64,000 nucleotides of DNA from Methylomonas montana (GTDB lineage Bacteria; Pseudomonadota; Gammaproteobacteria; Methylococcales; Methylomonadaceae). The translations under genes and the position numbers were made by a program. Below, piece after piece: positions 2,538 through 19,627 of this stretch. Location: contig NZ_CP129884.1 in assembly GCF_030490285.1 (NCBI RefSeq), forward strand, positions 2,418,001-2,482,000. Direction: 5' to 3'. The notes beneath the pieces were generated by a model that worked only from the letters and a program-made list of their open reading frames with translations, did no database searches and was not told the DNA's origin. Within the stretch, counting starts at the first letter, position 1. Each line of letters begins with the position of its first letter.

Positions 2538-3566
2538 TTGTACTTCTTGCGGGCGGCTGTTAGCGCTAATGATTTTAACAGAGACTTATTTAGCCAAAGT
2601 ATTGGTCATGCTTGCTGGAACAATATTGATACCAAGAACAAATTTAAAACTCTTTGGCAGCAGTTTGCTCTACTTTCTGTAATAGAACGTCAATCGGTGT
2701 TCGAGAGAATCAATAATGGGCAGATTATTCAACGATATTTTTGCGATTCTTCACACCCTTTTCCCGACATAAAGCCAGATGCACTGAATCAAAAATTGGC
2801 TGATCTCACTAAACACCTTTTTACCAGAACAAAAGATTTAGCTGAAGTTCGCGACGCTTGTGATGGAGAAACAATTCAGCAACATTTCAATAATTTTTGC
2901 GAAAAAAATGGATATTTATGTCCTGTCTGTGGAACTGAACTACTAGCACAATTGCGTTCAAATACTGACGATGAAGATCAATGGCGAGGGCCATATGACC
3001 ATTTATTGAGTAAAGATAAATACCCAACTTTCACGATTCATCCAGACAATTTGATTCCGATATGCCACACCTGTAATAGCAAGGCAAAAGGTGCAAAGCA
3101 GTTGCTATTCAAAAAAACACATGGTGGAGTTGAAAGGCGGAGATCAAGTTTTTATCCTCATACTGAACACTGTCGGGATCTTGTAAGGGTTGAATTGAAT
3201 GGCGACGCGCTATCTTTACAGCTAACAGTACTATGGGATGTGGCTGATTTAGAACTTTCAGAAAAAATGACGTCTTGGACTGAGGTCTATCAGGTAAAAC
3301 AAAGAGTCGAAGGAACACAGGCCGATTTTATTGTATGGATTGCAAGCGATTGCCAACCAGAAAGTTACGATGACTTTATTCAGCAGTTGCGCCGAAAGGC
3401 TATTCCGCCTAGTTATCAGGTAATACGTTCAGAATGTTTCAAATTCTGGCGATTTAAGCTCTATCATTGGATTGCACAACAAAGTGATGATTTTAAACAG
3501 CAACTTTGGGCAATGATTAATCAGCGCCGAAGTGATGAAGATTCCAGATTAGTTTACGGGATATAG
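2538..3566 (+). CDS. HNH endonuclease domain protein
   Basis: The 342-residue product holds an HNH-type zinc nuclease core in its middle: CPVCG near residue 134, YDHLLSKDKYPTFT, then NLIPICHTCNSKAKG. This gives two Cys pairs for zinc and the His/Asn residues of the ββα-metal fold. N- and C-terminal regions (about 120 and 150 residues) are of unknown fold. The only start that keeps the whole frame is a TTG at 2538 without a clear ribosome site, 11 bases after the hsdR fragment ends, so the true 5' end may have been lost in the same rearrangement. HNH proteins of this size are frequent in defence islands, which fits the restriction remnant to the left and ietAS to the right. Confidence 0.7.
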   Translation: MYFLRAAVSANDFNRDLFSQSIGHACWNNIDTKNKFKTLWQQFALLSVIERQSVFERINNGQIIQRYFCDSSHPFPDIKPDALNQKLADLTKHLFTRTKDLAEVRDACDGETIQQHFNNFCEKNGYLCPVCGTELLAQLRSNTDDEDQWRGPYDHLLSKDKYPTFTIHPDNLIPICHTCNSKAKGAKQLLFKKTHGGVERRRSSFYPHTEHCRDLVRVELNGDALSLQLTVLWDVADLELSEKMTSWTEVYQVKQRVEGTQADFIVWIASDCQPESYDDFIQQLRRKAIPPSYQVIRSECFKFWRFKLYHWIAQQSDDFKQQLWAMINQRRSDEDSRLVYGI

Positions 3567-3622: not shown

Positions 3623-6100
3623 TTAAACTGCCACCTGTACAAAAATTTGGTTTTCAACCGGTGTATAAATGTCGGTTTCCACACTCGGCGTTTTAATACT
3701 CACAACCAAGGCATAGCGTGCCGACTTCCCCCAGCGTTCCAAATTCGCTCGCTCCTTCCACCAACCCAATACCGGATAAACGGCGATATAACCTCGCTCG
3801 GCAAGTTCCGCCGCTTGTCCTGTCCAGCTATCGGAATGCACGGATCCCAGGCTACGCAATTTCTCACCCAACAGCCATTGGCCACTGTCTGGCTTGGCTC
3901 CGTTGTAGGCGTTTTCTTCGTCACGGGCCTTTTGATTGATGCGCTGTTTGAATTCGGTCAGCGTTTCCAGGGGGCGGCGTACATCGAAGCGTAAGCCATG
4001 GGATGCAAAGCGGTATTTGTTGACCCAGCCTCTGGAACCAGGATTCGGCTCGATGAAGTAGGACAAAGTGACCTTCATCTCGACTTGGGTTTCCGGCGGC
4101 AAGTCGCGCAAGATTTCCGCAGGCCATGGCAGCGTGTGCAAGTTGACGTCACGGGTTTTAACTTCACTGCCTTCCTTGGTATACGGATGAATGATGTCTT
4201 GAGCAACAAGGGTTAGCTCGTTACGTGCGCTCCAAAACAAAGTTTCTTCATCCGGTACGCCATAGCCGCAATACCTTAGCAGTTGGCGGTATTTTTCCTG
4301 GGTAGTCAACGGTGCAAACACCGCCTGCATAGCGGGTGTCCATTGGGCGGAATGGACCAATAGAGCTCTAATCGTTTCCGGCCAATAGTCTGGGTATAAA
4401 GCTTGTACTTTCGCTGCCAAATTAGCGGCTAATGCTGCGGCTGCGCTGGTATCGCCGAACGACACCAACTGTTTGCCCAAAGTAAACTGGTGGCCTGTGG
4501 TTAGCAATTGCAGTGCATCATCGATGTAATCGGCTTCGACATGGGCTGGGTTGGTAGCCATGTTACCGGCTTCCATGACAATCTCTGGTTTGATTGGCCA
4601 AGTTTTCTGCCAGTCCATGGATGTACAACTGGCCGGAGCCAAACCGCCTGGTGGAGCCAATGGTGACCACCCAGGATTAGTGATCGTGTCCAGCCAGGCT
4701 TTATCGGTATATCCACCGACCGTAAGCGCATTCCAGGATTGACCAGGGTCATGTACCTCGTCGGTCAGGTTGTTGTCGGGATACAGGTGCCTATATTGTG
4801 GATCAGTGTTGCCCGCTGACAGGATGATCAAGCGTTGTTGTTCGTCCTCATAACCGGATGTGATTGCATCAATCGCGGCAGACCAGGACGAGGGGCGTCC
4901 ACGATCTCTGTCGTCAGTGGTAGAAACTGCCATGCAAAACACGCGCTGCCGGTTGGCTTCGATTTCTACCCTGGCGATACTTTCTCGAGTAATCGCGCCG
5001 TAGAGGGATTTATCTGCATGGAAGTCTGGGTTCGGCGTGATTTTTACCGATTCAAGCCGATGGGTGAGCCGTATAGGTAATGGATTCGTCAGTGCCTCGG
5101 TTAAGTCGCCATAGACTGATAAGCCTGCCATATTGGTGCCGTGCCCATGTCGATCATCTGTTCCCCATGAGGGGAGATAAGAATGCATGTCGGTCGTTTC
5201 CGCCACCGGCTGTAACAGCGGATGCGCTTGATTGACGCCAGTATCCAGAATACAAACCGATGGTGCAGCATCGGGTGGTGGCGTTAGGTGTTGTAAGGTA
5301 TGTTCGATCCAGGCACGTTGGTCTTGACGACCCATGCCGGTGAAAAAGTCGGCGGTATCCTTGGCTTTTCTGAGTTCGGCAATTGCACCCAGCAAGTGAA
5401 TGGATTGACTGATTTGCTCGCGAGCGCCAAATACCAGGACGATGATTCTATCGAGGAAATGAATGGACTCGGTGCCGACTCTCAGATCAAGCTGAGGGGC
5501 GTGGTCACGCAGAAAGGCTTCGTAGTCGATTTCGCCCGAGCGTCTTAGCCAGACTTCCCACCAAATCGACTCACCGGCATTGGGCATTAATTCCGGCTCA
5601 TCCGTCCAAAGAGCATCCATGGCAGCGAGTTTGATCGACGTTATACTCTCGACCAAGTCTTTATTTTTGGGTTGATTTTTGGGAGTATTTTCGAGCTGAT
5701 ATTGGGAGATCTTCTTTAGAAAGTGAGTTAGCTTGCCTTCTGGTACAAAAACGGTCGCAATGGTTTTGTTATCAACAAGCTTAACGTTACAAAGCTCGAT
5801 ACCGCTTGGCTGAAATTCCAAGCTGGCAAATTTGAGCTCAAAATCCGGTTCACTTTCAAAAGCCAGATAAATGCCGTTGCTAACATCCAGGCCGAAGGCT
5901 TTCTGCTGTTCGATAATGCCAGTTTCTTGAGTTTGGATTTGCTGAATTTGCTCAAGAAGCTGTTCGGCATGCGCTTGGCGATTTCTGGCTGGGGTATTTA
6001 TACCGGCACCGCCAGGTCTTGGGGGACGAGCATAACTTTCAGCAGTCGCTGAATTTTGAATCAGTAGGTGTGGAAGGCGTTCCTTGCTATTTTCGGCCAT
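3623..6100 (-). CDS. ietS: Subtilisin-like serine protease of an IetAS defence pair
   Basis: This 825-residue protein has an S8 peptidase domain from about residue 278. The catalytic triad is readable: Asp286 in SVCILDTGVNQ, His320 in DRHGHGT, Ser552 in SFGDTSAAA, with the oxyanion Asn431 in LSAGN. Residues 1-270 are a family-specific N-terminal region without a signal peptide, so the protein is expected in the cytoplasm; a β-rich region follows the protease. The start codon directly follows the stop of the AAA ATPase gene (TAAATG), showing tight translational coupling. An ATPase plus subtilase pair is the layout of IetAS, first described as a plasmid maintenance module and later as anti-phage defence. 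The role here is inferred from that layout. Confidence 0.85.
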   Translation of the reverse strand: MAENSKERLPHLLIQNSATAESYARPPRPGGAGINTPARNRQAHAEQLLEQIQQIQTQETGIIEQQKAFGLDVSNGIYLAFESEPDFELKFASLEFQPSGIELCNVKLVDNKTIATVFVPEGKLTHFLKKISQYQLENTPKNQPKNKDLVESITSIKLAAMDALWTDEPELMPNAGESIWWEVWLRRSGEIDYEAFLRDHAPQLDLRVGTESIHFLDRIIVLVFGAREQISQSIHLLGAIAELRKAKDTADFFTGMGRQDQRAWIEHTLQHLTPPPDAAPSVCILDTGVNQAHPLLQPVAETTDMHSYLPSWGTDDRHGHGTNMAGLSVYGDLTEALTNPLPIRLTHRLESVKITPNPDFHADKSLYGAITRESIARVEIEANRQRVFCMAVSTTDDRDRGRPSSWSAAIDAITSGYEDEQQRLIILSAGNTDPQYRHLYPDNNLTDEVHDPGQSWNALTVGGYTDKAWLDTITNPGWSPLAPPGGLAPASCTSMDWQKTWPIKPEIVMEAGNMATNPAHVEADYIDDALQLLTTGHQFTLGKQLVSFGDTSAAAALAANLAAKVQALYPDYWPETIRALLVHSAQWTPAMQAVFAPLTTQEKYRQLLRYCGYGVPDEETLFWSARNELTLVAQDIIHPYTKEGSEVKTRDVNLHTLPWPAEILRDLPPETQVEMKVTLSYFIEPNPGSRGWVNKYRFASHGLRFDVRRPLETLTEFKQRINQKARDEENAYNGAKPDSGQWLLGEKLRSLGSVHSDSWTGQAAELAERGYIAVYPVLGWWKERANLERWGKSARYALVVSIKTPSVETDIYTPVENQIFVQVAV

Positions 6101-7093
6101 TTAGAGCGTGATTTGTTGTTTTTGTCTAACCAGCCGCCGTTCTTTTATCGAATGAATCAAGTCTGTGTGGCTGACCACTTCTTTGTTATGAATAATGGCA
6201 TCCTTGATGGCATCCTCACAAGCTCGGGTAATGTCGCCGTAACTAAGAGTTTCAGCCGCTTCGGCCGCTTTCGACCAGTATATGCGAGAAGTTTTATAGC
6301 TAGCCAGCTTGGATTTGATGGCCTCAATGATTTCATCTTTGGCTGGCAACTCATACTCGATCAGATCGTCGAAACGCCGGAACAGGGCATGATCCAGCAA
6401 CTCTTGATGGTTTGTTGCCGCGATTAACAGGCTGTCCGAGCCATCCTGCTCGATCATTTGTAGAAAACTGTTTAACACACGGCGTATTTCACCAACATCG
6501 TTAGTATTACCGCGTTGCGAGCCAATGCTGTCGAATTCGTCAAACAAATAAACGCCGCGAGTTTGTTCGATTGCATCGAAGATCAAACGTAATTTGCCCG
6601 CTGTCTCGCCCATATATTTGGTCATCAGGCTTTCCAGTCTAACGATAAAAAGTGGCAGACCCAATTCACCGGCCAAAATTGATGCTGTCATGGTTTTGCC
6701 GGTACCTGGTGGCCCAACCAATAACAGTTTCTTGCGTGGCGACAAGCCATGTGCACGCAATTTTTGCACATGCTTATGCTCTTTGATTAATCGTTCCAGC
6801 TTACCTTGTATGTTGCCGGATAGAACCATATCTACCAGTCTTAGTTGGGGATAGCTGACATTCAGCAATTGGCTGAGTTCGCCTTTGGGCTTGGCTAATG
6901 GGATAGCTTTCGACTCAGTTACCCGAGGTTTACCCTTGGCACTATCGATCAAGTCGCGTATTTCTTTGGCAAGATTGCCGTGTCCCTTTTTTGCTTCTTG
7001 TGCGGCCATTTGCATAGCAATCGACAAAAACATAGCGTCGTCGCCGTCTACATGCGACTTGAGCAATGCTTTGATTTGATTAGCAACGGCCAT
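6101..7093 (-). CDS. ietA: AAA+ ATPase of an IetAS defence pair
   Basis: The 330-residue protein has a central AAA+ domain with Walker A GPPGTGKT (127-134), Walker B VYLFDEFD (181-188), a sensor-1 region LLIAATNHQELL and an arginine-finger region ALFRRFDD, in the style of FtsH/spastin-like ATPases. The first 60 residues are helical (KALLKSHVDGDD... AAQEAKKGHG) and probably bind the partner or a substrate. The ATG at 7093 has a modest AAGGATCGG sequence upstream. It is the first gene of the two-gene ietAS unit. By analogy with the known pair, the ATPase is thought to control the serine protease encoded next; which phage or plasmid signal it senses cannot be read from sequence. Confidence 0.85.
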   Translation of the reverse strand: MAVANQIKALLKSHVDGDDAMFLSIAMQMAAQEAKKGHGNLAKEIRDLIDSAKGKPRVTESKAIPLAKPKGELSQLLNVSYPQLRLVDMVLSGNIQGKLERLIKEHKHVQKLRAHGLSPRKKLLLVGPPGTGKTMTASILAGELGLPLFIVRLESLMTKYMGETAGKLRLIFDAIEQTRGVYLFDEFDSIGSQRGNTNDVGEIRRVLNSFLQMIEQDGSDSLLIAATNHQELLDHALFRRFDDLIEYELPAKDEIIEAIKSKLASYKTSRIYWSKAAEAAETLSYGDITRACEDAIKDAIIHNKEVVSHTDLIHSIKERRLVRQKQQITL

Positions 7094-8369: not shown

Positions 8370-9464
8370 TTAATTCCATTTATCGAAGCCTGGAGAATTT
8401 GTATTGGCCTGATCAACACCTTTTTTGCCAACTTTTTGGCTTGCCTGTATGTTTGTAATGCAGAAACCATCTGCACCGCTTCGATACGAGCGTGAATAGT
8501 ATCCCTGTGAACGCAATGTCGCGTGCCCTAGCGCCATGGAAATAAGCTCTTTATCTAATCCGGCTCGATGTAATTGTCCCGAGAAGCGGTGGCGAAAACA
8601 ATATGCTGAAGCGGGTTCTTTGAGATTAGGCATTGCCTTTTTGCTTAAATAACTCACTTTGTCACACAACGCTCCAGTATTTGCAGTTATTGTCAATTCG
8701 CCATTATTCTTGCTTAGCTCAGCACATAAATACTCATATTCAATTGAATCAGATATCACGTCAAACTGGCGTAATTCCTGACCATACATACAGCCGCCGT
8801 GTCTCTTGGCGCCTTTAATTTTAACTTTGATAGAACGATCAGCATTCAGCGATAACACAGTCCCATCTACCTCTTCTGGACGGCAGCCAGAAATCATAAG
8901 GGTTGCAAGGGCAGTTCGGTGCTTGGTATGACTTTTCAATGCAGCCTGAAAGATTTTTTGCGCCCAGTCTTTCGGCAATGTTTTTAATCTTGATGATTTT
9001 GATTTTTTGGATTTGACTTCGTTCGATTCTGACTTAACTTTCCAGTCTGATTTGTATTGGCCATTTCTAGCTTTCGCTATATTTTCTTTGTTTTGGTCTA
9101 CACCAATTACATTCAGAAAATCAAGATATAGCTTTAAATTACCAACCTCTGTACTCCATCTTTGTTGGTCTGCTTTCCTTAAATTATCCATTCCTGGAAC
9201 GAGATCACTAATCGCATCCATTAAGTGGGATCGGATGGCAGCTTTATAAACATAATAAGTGGCTTTTGAGTTTGCTATATCTATTGGTAAAACCCTATCT
9301 TTGATCAACAATCTTTTAGCAACTTTATTGTAGTTTTGCCGTGTCTTATCACGGATATTTCGCGCCTGATTAAGCTTGTGAATTTTTCGGGCTTCTGCGA
9401 TAACTTTGTATTTTTCTTGTATATCTAAAGCGTGCATATCATCAGTAATCATTTTGAATTCCAT
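8370..9464 (-). CDS. Tyrosine recombinase (integrase)
   Basis: The C-terminal half carries the tyrosine recombinase catalytic residues: Arg195 in ISGCRPEEVD, a Lys in the KGAKRHG hairpin near 220, Arg291 in YCFRHRFSG, His314 in ALGHATLRSQ and the nucleophile Tyr322 or Tyr323 in QGYYSR. The usual first His of the HxLRH box is a Tyr. Residues 1-170 are basic and helical, as for an arm/core-binding domain. The ATG at 9464 is followed by other in-frame ATGs (9452, 9437), so the exact start is uncertain. It is the likely integrase of the island whose right attachment site may be the tRNA-Leu remnant at 20177, although integrases usually lie closer to an end. Confidence 0.85.
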   Translation of the reverse strand: MEFKMITDDMHALDIQEKYKVIAEARKIHKLNQARNIRDKTRQNYNKVAKRLLIKDRVLPIDIANSKATYYVYKAAIRSHLMDAISDLVPGMDNLRKADQQRWSTEVGNLKLYLDFLNVIGVDQNKENIAKARNGQYKSDWKVKSESNEVKSKKSKSSRLKTLPKDWAQKIFQAALKSHTKHRTALATLMISGCRPEEVDGTVLSLNADRSIKVKIKGAKRHGGCMYGQELRQFDVISDSIEYEYLCAELSKNNGELTITANTGALCDKVSYLSKKAMPNLKEPASAYCFRHRFSGQLHRAGLDKELISMALGHATLRSQGYYSRSYRSGADGFCITNIQASQKVGKKGVDQANTNSPGFDKWN

Positions 9465-14320: not shown

Positions 14321-14662
14321 TTACACTTCGAAGTCTTCGAGTTTTTTGCCTTTAGCAAGTTGTTCCTTAAGCCATAGGGGTCTGGCGCCTTTCCCCCCCC
14401 ATGCGTTGCCATTTTCATCACGATACTTGATCTGAGTGCTTTTGCCTTCAGCCAAGTGTGGCATATTTTTTTTCTTTTCGGATGCTTTGGACTCAAAGAA
14501 TCCGAGGTCTTTTGCCTCTATCTTGTATAGGGCAATTTTTGCCTTTATATCTTCGATTACCGATTCTATTTCTTTTAGTCTTGCCTGTTCTGCTTGATTT
14601 TGTAGCTGTTTGATTTTTTCTTGAAGCTCAACGTAGCTTGCAGTGTCCTCTTGAAATGTCAT
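14321..14662 (-). CDS. H-NS family nucleoid protein
   Basis: The 113-residue protein has the H-NS plan: an N-terminal coiled-coil oligomerisation region (YVELQEKIKQLQNQAEQARL, about residues 10-50), a linker, and a C-terminal DNA-binding domain with YRDENGNAWGGKGARPLWL and KGKKLEDFEV. H-NS proteins bind AT-rich DNA and silence foreign genes; island-borne copies may support or interfere with the host copy. It has a strong ribosome site, AAAGGAG, 9 bases before the ATG at 14662. It sits between the origin-like arrays and the divergent AlpA-primase genes, so it may repress that AT-rich promoter region. Confidence 0.9.
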   Translation of the reverse strand: MTFQEDTASYVELQEKIKQLQNQAEQARLKEIESVIEDIKAKIALYKIEAKDLGFFESKASEKKKNMPHLAEGKSTQIKYRDENGNAWGGKGARPLWLKEQLAKGKKLEDFEV

Positions 14663-14877: not shown

Positions 14878-15066
14878 ATGAAAGCTATTGATAAAAAAAT
14901 TTTTGTTAGGCCCGCTGAAATACAAGAAATTTATGGCATTAGCAGAAGTACTGCGTATCGATTGATGGCTGAAGATAAATTTCCACAGCTCATCAAACTA
15001 ACCGAGCGTTGCCGCGCTTGGTATAAAGAAGAGCTTGATAAACATTTCAACATGGCAGCGCAATAA
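14878..15066 (+). CDS. AlpA-like excisionase/regulator
   Basis: The 62-residue protein has a MerR-type winged helix-turn-helix: FVRPAEIQEIYGISRSTAYR then LMAEDKFPQLIKLTER and a WYKEELDKHF end. This matches the AlpA family of small phage and island regulators, which control integrase or primase genes or act as excisionase. The start at 14878 follows AAGGTG at 14865. It lies 11 bases before the primase gene and is the first gene of that operon, a common order on P4-like and tRNA-borne islands. Confidence 0.85.
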   Translation: MKAIDKKIFVRPAEIQEIYGISRSTAYRLMAEDKFPQLIKLTERCRAWYKEELDKHFNMAAQ

Positions 15067-15077
15067 TAGGACGAATT

Positions 15078-16582
15078 ATGAGTTTAATCAACGATGCCAT
15101 TAGTGAAATGCTCGACGCCGGATTGATCGTAAAAGATGGTGTACTCAACTTAGATTGTGGCATACATCGCTTACCAACAACGCAAAAACCGAATAAAACA
15201 GATGGTTGGTACATCGGTTCTGAAAAACAAATCGGTGGCAAGGATTATGTCTGTGTTACATATAGCAACTATATAACAGGTGAAAAGGTAACGTACAAAA
15301 GCTGGAAGAATGATACCAACATTCCAACTGCACATAAAGATCAGCTTTTGAAACAAATCAATGCCCAAAAAGTAGCTGCCGAAGCCGTAGCAGAGAAAAC
15401 GGCCAAAGAGGCTGCTGAAAAATCGTTTCAAAAATGGGAGACACTTTCAGTTGAAAGAGAACGGCAGCATGCTTATTTCACTAACAAGAATGTCAATAAT
15501 TACGGATTGCGTTTTGGTGAAAATTGGAAAGGTAATTTTACTGCCGTGCCTATTTTTGATATTGATGGTCACTATAAAGGCATGCAGAGAATTTATGAGG
15601 ATGTGATCCCAGGGACAGATCGGAATAAGGAGTTCGATTTTGGAATGAGTAAAAAATGCGGTCACTTTATCATCGGAGCACCCCCTGATAGATCCGCGAA
15701 TGAGCCGCTGTTATTTGCAGAGGGTTATGCAACGGCTGCAAGCATTTTTGAAGCAACTGGCTACACCACAATTGTTTGCTTTGATGCCGGCAACTTGTAC
15801 CCTGTTGTTGAGGCATATAGAGAACTTTTTCCAAGCCATAATTTTATAATTTGCGCTGATAATGATGAGCATTTAGAGACTAATGTTGGATTTAACAAGG
15901 CAAAAATCGCCGCCAAAAAATTTAATTGCAATGTTGCTTTGCCTACGTTTCTCGAAGAACACAAAATCCAAATCCCTTCCGACTTTAATGATTATCATAA
16001 TCTTTATGGTTTGGTGGCTGTTAAGAAAGCCATTGATCTGGTGATACGAGAACACGTTCAAGAACCTCTACCCCAAGAAAAAAATAAATCAAAAATTCCC
16101 GAACTAAAGGACAGGCCTTGTTTTTTTGTCTCTGAGGAATTTTTTTGCATCGATGATAAAAATAAAAAGCCAGGACTGTATTATTTCGATACCAAAATGG
16201 TTGGGAAAGAAAAAACTGCAATAGAGCTTGTCGAAACTTGGATCTGTAGTCCATTTTATGTCGATGCAATTTCATCAGATAATAAAGGCAATAGCTTCGG
16301 TCGACTTATTCGCTTTATCAATGCAAAAAAGCAATGGTGCTCGTTGATTCTGCCAATGAGTTTTCTCGCGTCGCAAAGTTGCGAAAAGCTGTTCGATCAA
16401 TTACTCGATAAAGGATTGCTGATTGATCCAAGGCATAAAAATTTATTGCTACAGTATGTTCATACTCATACACCTCAAATGCATGTTGAAACAATTATGA
16501 AAACAGGCTGGCATGAGGGGGCGTTTGTGCTGACAGACAAAACATTTGGCAACAGCGAACTCTATTATCAAGCTGAGGGGTT
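15078..16582 (+). pseudogene. TOPRIM-DUF927 primase-helicase, N-terminal piece
   Basis: This 501-codon piece encodes a primase-like N-terminal region and a TOPRIM domain: FAEGYATA with catalytic Glu215 at 213-220, CFDAGN near 235 and CADNDEH at 259-265. After it begins the DUF927 region (FFVSEEFF, GWHEGAFVL, ELYYQAEG). AGGA at 15068 precedes the ATG. Family members continue directly into a DUF927 helicase-like ATPase core. Here the frame meets inverted DNA at 16583 and stops four codons later at 16592. The missing core is present just downstream on the other strand (16583-17332), and the end of the gene is back on the plus strand from 17333. Confidence 0.85.
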
Positions 16583-17332
16583 GCCACCCTAGCAACTTGG
16601 CTACTTAGCGAGTTAATTGAAAAGTGTTGTTCGATCTGGATCTGTTCTTGTAAGAAATCATGTTTGCAAGCAACTAATTTAGAGAGAAATTCTTGACCTG
16701 CGACACCATAATTTTTTTTGCTGGCTGCAACTAATGCATCAGAAAATTCTCTTCCATTTCGGAAGCCGTGTAGATCATTAAAGACACCATATCTGCCAGC
16801 AACCGGAATACCAACTAACCGCAACTCCTGACCAGCATTAATAGATAAATTGTGGGTCGAGAGATAGTCTTCGAGGCTTTCTTCGCCCGTTGACAGGACC
16901 ATTGTTCGCCAACGTTGAACTTCTTTTGCTTTGCCAGAGATCAAAGCACGCTGCTTGCCTTGACCATTGAACAATGAATAGGTGATGCAGCTGATTTCTT
17001 TAGGGTCAGCTTCTGAAATTTCGTCGAGTGGCAATAATGTATCGTTGTAAATCATCGCTGCACCTTCCATGCCATTGGCCGTTGCTTTCCATGAGCGTGT
17101 GAAATTATCGCCACCCCAGACGCTTCTAGCCACCGACAAAAGCGTGGTTTTGCCACTGCTTGAATCACCGTAGAGATGAATGCCGCCACCGGCGGCATTA
17201 ACTTTTTCCAGTAACGGTCCAGCAAATGCAGCACTAACAAACAGCATCATTGATGCATTGTTAGTGCAAAAACGTGCCATTGCTTTCTGCCAATCGTTCA
17301 ATGTGCCGGACATTTGATAGATAACAGGCATT
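16583..17332 (-). pseudogene. DUF927 ATPase core of the primase-helicase, inverted piece
   Basis: Read on the minus strand, this 250-codon piece is the DUF927 core: SGTLNDWQKAMARF, FAGPLLEKVNAAGGG, a Walker A loop YGDSSSGKTTLL, VWGGDNFTRSWKATANGMEG, Walker B LLPLDEISEADP, the NGQGKQRALISG stretch, GQELRLVGIPV, and finally SSQVARVA. Reversing the segment joins QAEG to LMPVIYQMSG on the left and VARVA to KRFAVIAHAGELA on the right, both in frame, exactly restoring the family order. No stop codon or frameshift is seen in it. The breakpoints are defined to within two bases (TT on one side, AA on the other), without long flanking inverted repeats. Confidence 0.85.
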
Positions 17333-17777
17333 AAAACGATTCGCAGTTATCGCGCATGCAGGTGAATTAGCTACAAAATTTGACATAACCGGTTGGACAA
17401 CTGGTGATGCCACTTCTGCCGCAATTGCTTGTTTTGAGCTTTGGCGGGAAGGTTTTCATCATGAAAGCTTCGAAAGTGACAGAGCCTTACTATCCGTATC
17501 TGATTTTGTCGACAAATGGCGAGAAAGTCGATTTATGGCGCCTGGGGATTATTGTGCAAACCGCGCTGGTTATATACGTCAAAAAGACGGTGTCACTCAC
17601 TACCAGTTCAACCGCCCAGGGTTGCAGGAAGCATTGAATGGGTTGAATTTCAAGCGTAGCCTTCAAGCATTAAAGAACGCCGGATGGCTTTTAACAGAGC
17701 AAGGTTCTTTGACGACTCAAGTCAAAATTAAAGGCAAAAATACGCGCCTGTTCGTTATCCAATTTCCAGAAAACTAA
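17333..17777 (+). pseudogene. DUF927 primase-helicase, C-terminal piece
   Basis: From codon AAA at 17334 the plus-strand frame reads KRFAVIAHAGELATKF, then GWTTGDATSAAIACFELWRE, then a winged-helix-like end (LQALKNAGWLLTEQG, TRLFVIQFPEN). This is the usual C-terminal part of DUF927 island helicases. It lacks its own start. With the inverted piece turned back, the full protein would be about 900 residues, a normal size. The unknown gene disrupted by the IS element begins only 12 bases after the stop. Confidence 0.8.
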
Positions 17778-17789
17778 AGAATTGCCGCC

Positions 17790-17840
17790 ATGCAAACAAA
17801 TGAAGCAATGAAAAAACGTGTTTACTGCAAACTTAATTAG
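17790..17840 (+). pseudogene. Unknown small gene, 5' fragment cut by IS5-type element
   Basis: ATG at 17790 begins MQTNEAMKKRVYCKLN and runs into a TAG made by the IS boundary. Removing the IS and one copy of TAATTA joins codon 16 in frame to YHTFLQAVGL at 19622 onward, giving a 129-residue protein. It follows the primase gene by 12 bases and was probably in the same operon. The family is not recognised. Confidence 0.75.
17834..17839. repeat. Target site duplication, left copy (TAATTA)
   Basis: TAATTA directly precedes the left end of the IS element and is repeated at 19622-19627. Because the hexamer is palindromic, it could also be read as part of the inverted repeats. Confidence 0.7.
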
Positions 17841-19621
17841 AGTCTGCTCAGAAAATATAACCCATTGATTAAGCGTAGTTATTGAGGAATTTTGGTATAA
17901 TTGCTGCACGAAAAACATGCCATTAGCCTCAAAAACCGTGCAGCCATGATTCGAACCACGAGCTCAAAACAACTGACGATAGCTGAATTCGACTGGCCGT
18001 TCGAGACAGCCCTGGATAAACACAATCGCTGGGTAAAACTGAGTGAGTGCATCCCGTGGGACGAACTGGCGGAATGCTATTACCAAGGGATGAGGGCGGA
18101 CCGGGGCCGGCCGTTGAAAGACGCGCGGCGCGTAATCGGCGCGGTGATCATCAAGCACAAACTGTGTTTGTCAGACGTGGAAACCGTCCAGCAAATCCAG
18201 GAAAACCCGTACCTGCAATACTTCGTCGGCTTGCCCGGCTACCAAGCGGCGGCGCCGTTTGCGCCGTCGTTATTGGTCGAAGTGCGCAAGCGCATGGGCG
18301 AAGCCGTGTTCGAAGGCTTTCACCGCGCCATCATCGAGGCGCACGAGGGGCAAAAGCCGACCCCGACCAAACTGGAAACGCCGCCGGCCGCGGCAACGCC
18401 CGCTGCGTCTGAGCCGAAGGCCGCGGCTAGCGTGACCGCGCCTGAAGCTGAGGTTCAGCCCGAGGCGGCCGAAGCGGCCTTGGATTTTGCCGATAAAGAC
18501 GGTGTCCCATCGGCACCGGAGCCGGAAGCACCGGCCGCCCCGCGCGGCCAATTGATTCTGGATGCCACCGTGGTCGAACAAGCCATCCGCTTTCCCACCG
18601 ATTTGAGCCTGTTGAACGAAGCGCGGGAATTAACGGAACGGATCATCGACACCCTGTGCAAGCGCCTGAAGGTCACGGACAAACCCAGGACTTATCGCCA
18701 CAAAGCCCGCAGTGCGTATCTGGCCGTCGCCAAACAAAAGCGCCCCGGCCGGAAAGTGCTACGCCGAGGCATCAAGCAACAGTGGCAATATCTGCGCCGC
18801 AACCTGAGCCACATCGAACAACTCTTGGCGCCCATCCCTCAGGGTTCGCCGCTGCCGTTGCCGGGTTGGCTGCTGCATCGCTACTGGGTGATTCAGCATC
18901 TGTACCAGCAACAATGGGACATGTATCGAAACCAGACCCGCCGCTGCGACCGCCGCATCGTCAGTATCAGTCAACCCTATGTGCGGCCGATGGTGCGCGG
19001 CAAGTTGGACAAGCCGGTCGAATTCGGCGCCAAACTCAGCGTCAGCCTGAGCGGCGAAGGCCTAGCTCATGTCGATCACCTGCGATGGGATGCCTTTCAC
19101 GAAGGACTGGATCTGGTCTCGCAAGTCGAAGCGTACTTGGCGCGCTACGGCCACTATCCGGAACGGGTGCTCGCCGATCCGATCTACGGCACGCGCGCCA
19201 ACCGCGACTACCTGAAGCAACACGGTATCCGCTTTGCCGGCAAACCGCTCGGCCGCCCCAAACGCGAAACCGAGGCCAACCGGGAGCAACTCAAACACGA
19301 CAAAGAACAGCGCCGGCAGGAATACCTGCAGCGCATCCCCATCGAAGGCAAATTCGGCCAAGGTAAAAACGGCTATCGTCTCACCGACATCCGCGCCAAG
19401 CGCGCCAACACCTCGTTCGCCTGGATCAACACCATCTTCTTGGTGATGAACCTGCTGGTCCTGCAAGGGATCTTTTTTGCCCTCGGTCAATGCCGCCTGG
19501 TCGGGTTACTGCAAATGATCGTGCGCGCCTGGAAACAAAAGATTTGGAATCTGCGCACCCATTCTAACTTGGCCGATCCGATTTGCTCGTCATTGCCACA
19601 GCTGATTTACTGAGCAGACTC
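17840..19621 (+). mobile_element. IS5-superfamily insertion sequence, 1782 bp
   Basis: The ends are GAGTCTGCTCAG at 17840-17851 and its reverse complement CTGAGCAGACTC at 19610-19621; similarity continues inward for about six more bases with mismatches. A single transposase gene fills the element. The element is clearly more GC-rich than the surrounding island, indicating later arrival. It interrupts a small gene just after the primase. Confidence 0.9.
17946..19613 (+). CDS. IS5-family type transposase
   Basis: The 555-residue product has an InsH-like N-terminal domain (FDWPFETALDKHNRWVKLSE, AVIIKHKLCLSDVETVQQIQ, NPYLQYFVGLPGY). An alanine/proline/glutamate-rich linker follows (about residues 135-205), and then a DDE nuclease domain starting at LILDATVVEQAIRFPTD, with a later Asp in VLADPIYGTRANR and Glu in IPIEGKFGQGKNGYRL. 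The ATG at 17946 was preferred to an upstream TTG because the recognisable domain begins there. The stop at 19613 lies inside the right inverted repeat. It appears intact and may be active. The long Ala/Pro linker is unusual for this family but has no frameshift. Confidence 0.85.
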   Translation: MIRTTSSKQLTIAEFDWPFETALDKHNRWVKLSECIPWDELAECYYQGMRADRGRPLKDARRVIGAVIIKHKLCLSDVETVQQIQENPYLQYFVGLPGYQAAAPFAPSLLVEVRKRMGEAVFEGFHRAIIEAHEGQKPTPTKLETPPAAATPAASEPKAAASVTAPEAEVQPEAAEAALDFADKDGVPSAPEPEAPAAPRGQLILDATVVEQAIRFPTDLSLLNEARELTERIIDTLCKRLKVTDKPRTYRHKARSAYLAVAKQKRPGRKVLRRGIKQQWQYLRRNLSHIEQLLAPIPQGSPLPLPGWLLHRYWVIQHLYQQQWDMYRNQTRRCDRRIVSISQPYVRPMVRGKLDKPVEFGAKLSVSLSGEGLAHVDHLRWDAFHEGLDLVSQVEAYLARYGHYPERVLADPIYGTRANRDYLKQHGIRFAGKPLGRPKRETEANREQLKHDKEQRRQEYLQRIPIEGKFGQGKNGYRLTDIRAKRANTSFAWINTIFLVMNLLVLQGIFFALGQCRLVGLLQMIVRAWKQKIWNLRTHSNLADPICSSLPQLIY

Positions 19622-19627
19622 TAATTA
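19622..19627. repeat. Target site duplication, right copy (TAATTA)
   Basis: This matches 17834-17839 on the other side of the element. The joined sequence reads through in frame, which supports a true 6-base duplication. Confidence 0.7.

Follow-up and report, generated by a model that had tools for sequence, protein, structure and literature searches.

Cch and the SaPI Rep proteins are the DUF927 replication-initiator helicases of SCCmec and SaPIbov1, and Cch is described, in the available part of one article, as a DUF927-containing protein that is MCM-like, or close to the MCM helicases (PMC7581432). In the Gram-negative PICI satellites, according to excerpts of PMC10111431, induction and transfer require the int, alpA and pri genes, and the origin is located downstream of pri. 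The locus described here, located in a window of 64,000 nucleotides (the whole stretch of the Methylomonas montana genome that was analysed), resembles both systems. As occurs with Cch and SaPI Rep, the protein combines a DUF927 ATPase with a Cch-type helix-turn-helix, and its sequence relatives in the PDB include 8tch_A, a pathogenicity island protein (E 3e-19), and 5dgk_A, an active helicase (E 2e-12). Unlike Cch and SaPI Rep, it carries a TOPRIM domain at its N-terminus, and, its core being inverted, it is presumably inactive. As in the Gram-negative PICIs, alpA is directly followed by the primase-helicase gene and a tyrosine integrase gene is nearby; int, alpA and pri are all three present (Table 1), and we infer that they belong to one island. 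The differences are that the integrase gene lies on the opposite strand at a distance of about 5 kb, and that the place directly after pri is taken by an insertion sequence (IS).

Intragenic invertons have reportedly been described by Chanin et al. 2024, and our locus shares with them a DNA inversion inside a coding gene. It differs from them in having no flanking inverted repeats: in the accessible text of PMC11892184, invertons have inverted repeats of 10-40 nt on either side, to which the invertase binds. A second comparison is with the primate microinversions, which measure 17-33 nt, have flanking repeats of 3-75 nt and are ascribed to template switching or microhomology-mediated BIR; those of human and chimpanzee are all flanked, in the portion of the report at hand, by inverted repeats of at least 3 nt, around far shorter segments than ours (PMC8755829). 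The present inversion is clean and conservative, as are those repeat-flanked events, but it spans 750 bp with 2 bp at its ends, and occurred in a bacterium.

Table 1. Features of the split primase-helicase gene and of its island, in window coordinates.
Feature	Position	Strand	Remarks
Tyrosine integrase, probable island integrase	8370..9464	-	PHROG integrase E 4e-7; Pfam 24.1 bits, under the 27.1 cut-off
AlpA-type regulator/excisionase	14878..15066	+	directly upstream of the primase-helicase gene, same strand
Whole primase-helicase gene	15078..17777	+	TOPRIM, DUF927 ATPase and Cch-type HTH; 899 aa with the middle turned back
N-terminal piece	15078..16592	+	504 aa as found; TOPRIM ~15714-16001; first half of DUF927 ~16164-16556
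Left breakpoint dinucleotide TT	16581..16582	not assigned	
Inverted segment, 750 bp, P-loop ATPase core	16583..17332	-	second half of DUF927 ~16915-17319
Right breakpoint dinucleotide AA	17333..17334	not assigned	
C-terminal piece, HTH_56 (Cch helix-turn-helix)	17337..17777	+	HTH ~17478-17771
IS with DDE transposase	17834..19627	+	23-nt terminal inverted repeats, 96% complementary; 56 bp beyond the gene

The Pfam profiles divide the gene over three frames. The plus-strand frame 15078-16592 matches Toprim_3 and DUF927 profile positions 4-132, the minus-strand frame 16495-17331 matches DUF927 profile positions 148-283, and the plus-strand frame 17337-17777 matches HTH_56 at 26.8 bits (cut-off 26.2). 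The two DUF927 pieces, on opposite strands, score 64.2 and 177 bits against a curated cut-off of 22.6; there is no continuous coding frame, the core being on the other strand. This core contains the motifs GDSSSGKTT and LLPLDEIS, which we take to be Walker A and B, and the N-terminal piece ends at a TAG located inside the inverted segment. Turning the segment back gave one open frame of 899 codons with zero stops. By itself, such a frame would be weak support for an inversion, since 237 of 1,400 combinations of breakpoints (40 x 35) also preserve one. The joints were examined in a 22-row alignment. The right joint, QVARVA/KRFAVIAHAGELA, aligned without a gap with motifs such as QAARAASRFALYAMAGELA in those homologues that extend over it. 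The left joint, YYQAEG/LMPVIYQMSGTLNDWQ, was one residue shorter than the commonest homologue form; it sits in a variable region that separates the first DUF927 part from the P-loop core, and coincides with the gap in the DUF927 match (profile positions 133-147). This homology across both joints is strong evidence for the inversion, and it confirms the observation of the first-pass annotation that the middle of a primase-helicase gene has been inverted. Because no close relative permits a direct comparison with the ancestral DNA, the position of the left joint may be wrong by one codon, and the true breakpoint may slide over the 2 bp (TT/AA).

The event was judged to be recent because none of the three pieces contains a stop and 40 of the 42 residues in columns conserved at 95% or more are kept (N-terminal piece 6/6, core 27/27, C-terminal piece 7/9). 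At 85% conservation or more, the pieces kept 13/18, 48/51 and 15/20, respectively. Two results count against this reading: at 95% the C-terminal piece, with its 7/9, stands below a homologue median of 1.0, and at 85% the N- and C-terminal pieces fall under the medians of 0.94 and 0.95. These counts come from 37 homologous rows; loci L017, L020 and L021 (split or distant), L026-L028, L022 (duplicate of L002) and the loci of the gene itself (L001, L004-L006) were left out, and L043, the same gene as L017, entered by its longest frame. A stop arises from 4.2% of single substitutions, and the 2.7 kb carry no disabling change, which limits the divergence accumulated neutrally after the inversion to about 2.6% when only substitutions are considered, and to 0.6-1.0% with 0.2-0.1 indels per substitution assumed (95% bounds). 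Under these three indel assumptions, and assuming neutrality, the bound is about 0.6-2.6% overall, so the inversion is recent, which supports one of the options given on first reading, or selection is still acting on the gene.

The ends of the segment share TT/AA only. Within 60 bp of both ends, zero 7-mers were shared in the inverted orientation and one in the direct orientation, and an inverted repeat of at least 12 nt pairing the ends was not found. The first-pass annotation, which had described ends with only TT/AA in common and no long inverted repeats, was right in this respect.

Taken together, we consider it likely that a recent, one-off and conservative inversion of 750 bp inactivated the initiator of an integrated, satellite-like island. 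It would be a single event in which no dedicated recombinase took part, caused by template switching during replication or by break repair assisted by a microhomology of no more than 2 bp. A working helicase would no longer be produced from the split gene, since its presumed Walker A/B core is encoded on the opposite strand; the N-terminal piece, a TOPRIM domain plus half of DUF927 without the P-loop core, is unlikely to be one. Lacking a functional helicase, the island would be unable to start its own replication and would become fixed in place, and the IS would have landed just after the gene alongside this fixation. An island that is losing its autonomy is the most likely situation. The inversion itself, in an ordinary gene family, is real and recent, and a one-off loss of function is its most likely account.

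Two candidate routes were rejected. Classical bacterial end joining is not supported, because Ku (PF02735) was not found in the genome, in a search whose control was positive in Bacillus subtilis. An inversion mediated by the neighbouring IS is not supported either: this element touches neither breakpoint, and 500 bp separate it from the right end.

Several observations count against one-off repair. Both joints are in frame, and the right joint loses nothing. Such joints are tidier than those of most break repair, and a conservative recombinase would give them. The ends also enclose the ATPase module rather neatly, and the right end may have some dyad symmetry, with 9/20 matches where about 5 are expected, against 4/20 at the left end. 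Finally, TT/AA is shorter than the repeats at the human and chimpanzee microinversions in the available part of PMC8755829.

If the inversion was a one-off event, the locus would be a clean and recent case of a mobile element losing its replication gene by a repeat-free conservative inversion, in a host in which Ku was not found. Such events would be easily overlooked, as gene callers would probably list short separate genes.

The first alternative is that the inversion is an assembly or chimaera artefact and that the living genome carries the uninterrupted gene. The undecayed state of the gene would fit this idea. However, the 4.63-Mb genome is assembled as a single contig, and the primase-helicase sequence occurs in it once. 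Assemblers, as a rule, flip segments that lie between inverted repeats, and since no such repeats were seen at these ends, an assembly error, which the first-pass annotation had left as an option, is unlikely.

A second alternative, also taken from the first-pass annotation, is that the inversion is a reversible on/off switch with a serine-invertase core: a recombinase would flip the ATPase core in a programmed manner and so toggle the replication of the island. No stop has accumulated and the frame is kept at both joints, as would be expected of such a switch, and the right end has 9/20 dyad matches. The genome also encodes possible recombinases. PF00239 had two matches in the genome: a serine recombinase located about 106 kb away, in a frame of 531 aa, and a frame of 83 aa at a greater distance. 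The domain was not found within the window, but a tyrosine integrase, probably that of the island, is encoded about 7 kb away. The ends themselves do not favour a switch. With the flanks aligned on the TT/AA core, 11 of the 52 positions matched, below the mean of 14.9 for 20,000 random TT/AA pairs. A symmetry of at least two bases is reached by 17% of the breakpoint pairs that we enumerated in the gene at spacings of 740-760 bp. TT/AA as a serine-invertase core is not above chance against either set and was rejected. In sixteen shuffle-controlled comparisons, the ends did not convincingly resemble the IS ends, the flanks of the integrase gene or the locus of the long serine recombinase; in the best of them, which paired the uninverted left end with that recombinase locus, 5 of 60 shuffles did as well. 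Neither flanking inverted repeats nor convincing recombination sites of the inverton type were present, against the 10-40 nt repeats with which invertons are described in the accessible text of PMC11892184.

Other genomes also give no support for a switch. DUF927 matches were present in 31 of the 369 other genomes of the class sample and in 50 of the 396 of the phylum sample, 72 distinct genomes in all, and none of these 72 had close DUF927 pieces on opposite strands. Note that this test detects only inversions that cut DUF927 itself and leave both halves detectable, and that several genomes had only partial matches. One orientation is present in the one genome. With a symmetry at chance level, ends that are unlike each other, no convincing match to the recombinase loci and no second case in this survey, the switch has only a small chance of being right, and it is kept as a bold alternative, a long shot.

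Its most specific form starts from the behaviour of the large serine recombinases, which can join unlike sites that have only a 2-bp core in common, TT included. In this form, a large serine recombinase would flip the segment in vivo through unlike sites with a TT core, toggling the initiator helicase between assembled and disassembled states; we give this version no more than a slim outside chance. If it were true, TT-core flipping would be a replication switch without inverted repeats, and inverton finders based on inverted repeats would miss it. More generally, a reversible inversion would represent a new kind of replication switch, invisible to repeat-based searches for invertons.

The last alternative is that a recombinase or transposase acted off target on a single occasion, at pseudo-sites of the serine recombinase or through the neighbouring IS, in place of a polymerase or repair error. 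Its main argument is the tidy, conservative and in-frame joints, and the IS was recently active in the genome, with 9 copies of 99-100% identity, this copy included, but with the IS away from both breakpoints and ends that have no convincing similarity to IS ends or to the surroundings of the recombinases it is very improbable.

We also searched for relatives of the inverted gene. A match to the core was present in 15 of 60 related genomes, the best with 60% identity over part of the core and the others with 49% or less. Peptide-pattern scans of genome_contigs and viral_contigs with the core revealed no closer relatives, and the same scans with the N-terminal piece yielded a single distant locus, of 25% identity, in the former and nothing in the latter. 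The tblastn hits among 68 plasmid and 19 phage records were all below 60% identity, and the literature search found no report of an inverted DUF927 gene. Ordinary decay does occur in this family, because one-strand splits and internal stops were seen in relatives: DUF927 was split on one strand in 4 of the 72 genomes (G097, G234, G575 and G767), three matches contained an internal stop (G124, G234 and G527), and the gene of G027 was also split on one strand. At loci L020 (G027) and L017/L043 (G039), the homologous gene is split between frames of one strand. Separately, the interval G000:C1:2322913-2336083 (L002, L003 and L026) carries two uninterrupted DUF927 genes on opposite strands, over a span of about 13 kb, with the serine recombinase of the 531-aa frame located between them; it is perhaps another island, about 100 kb away.

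Finally, we analysed the surroundings of the gene. No convincing direct repeats of at least 22 nt that could mark the island ends were found in 6500-30000, and nothing left of about 20605 was common to the regions fetched from 5 relatives. In the 629 bp beside the IS, no 7-9-mer was present three or more times, as origin iterons would be; only short two-copy direct repeats were seen there. An H-NS-like protein (PF00816) is encoded next to the AlpA gene, at window positions 14321-14662 on the minus strand. Further to the left, a subtilase and AAA ATPase pair (3623-7093, minus strand) matches the IetA/IetS defence system (PADLOC; IetA E 2e-81, IetS E 5e-46). On the plus strand, the protein of 1375-2526 aligns with positions 696-1050 of 1170 in a PADLOC profile for a type I restriction enzyme (E 1e-73), a match to the C-terminal portion in which the first part of the enzyme is apparently missing, and the adjacent 2538-3566 encodes a protein of 342 aa that has no Pfam match at E 0.001 and has partial matches to the candidate defence families PDC-M62B, PDC-M01B and PtuB (best E 1e-13).
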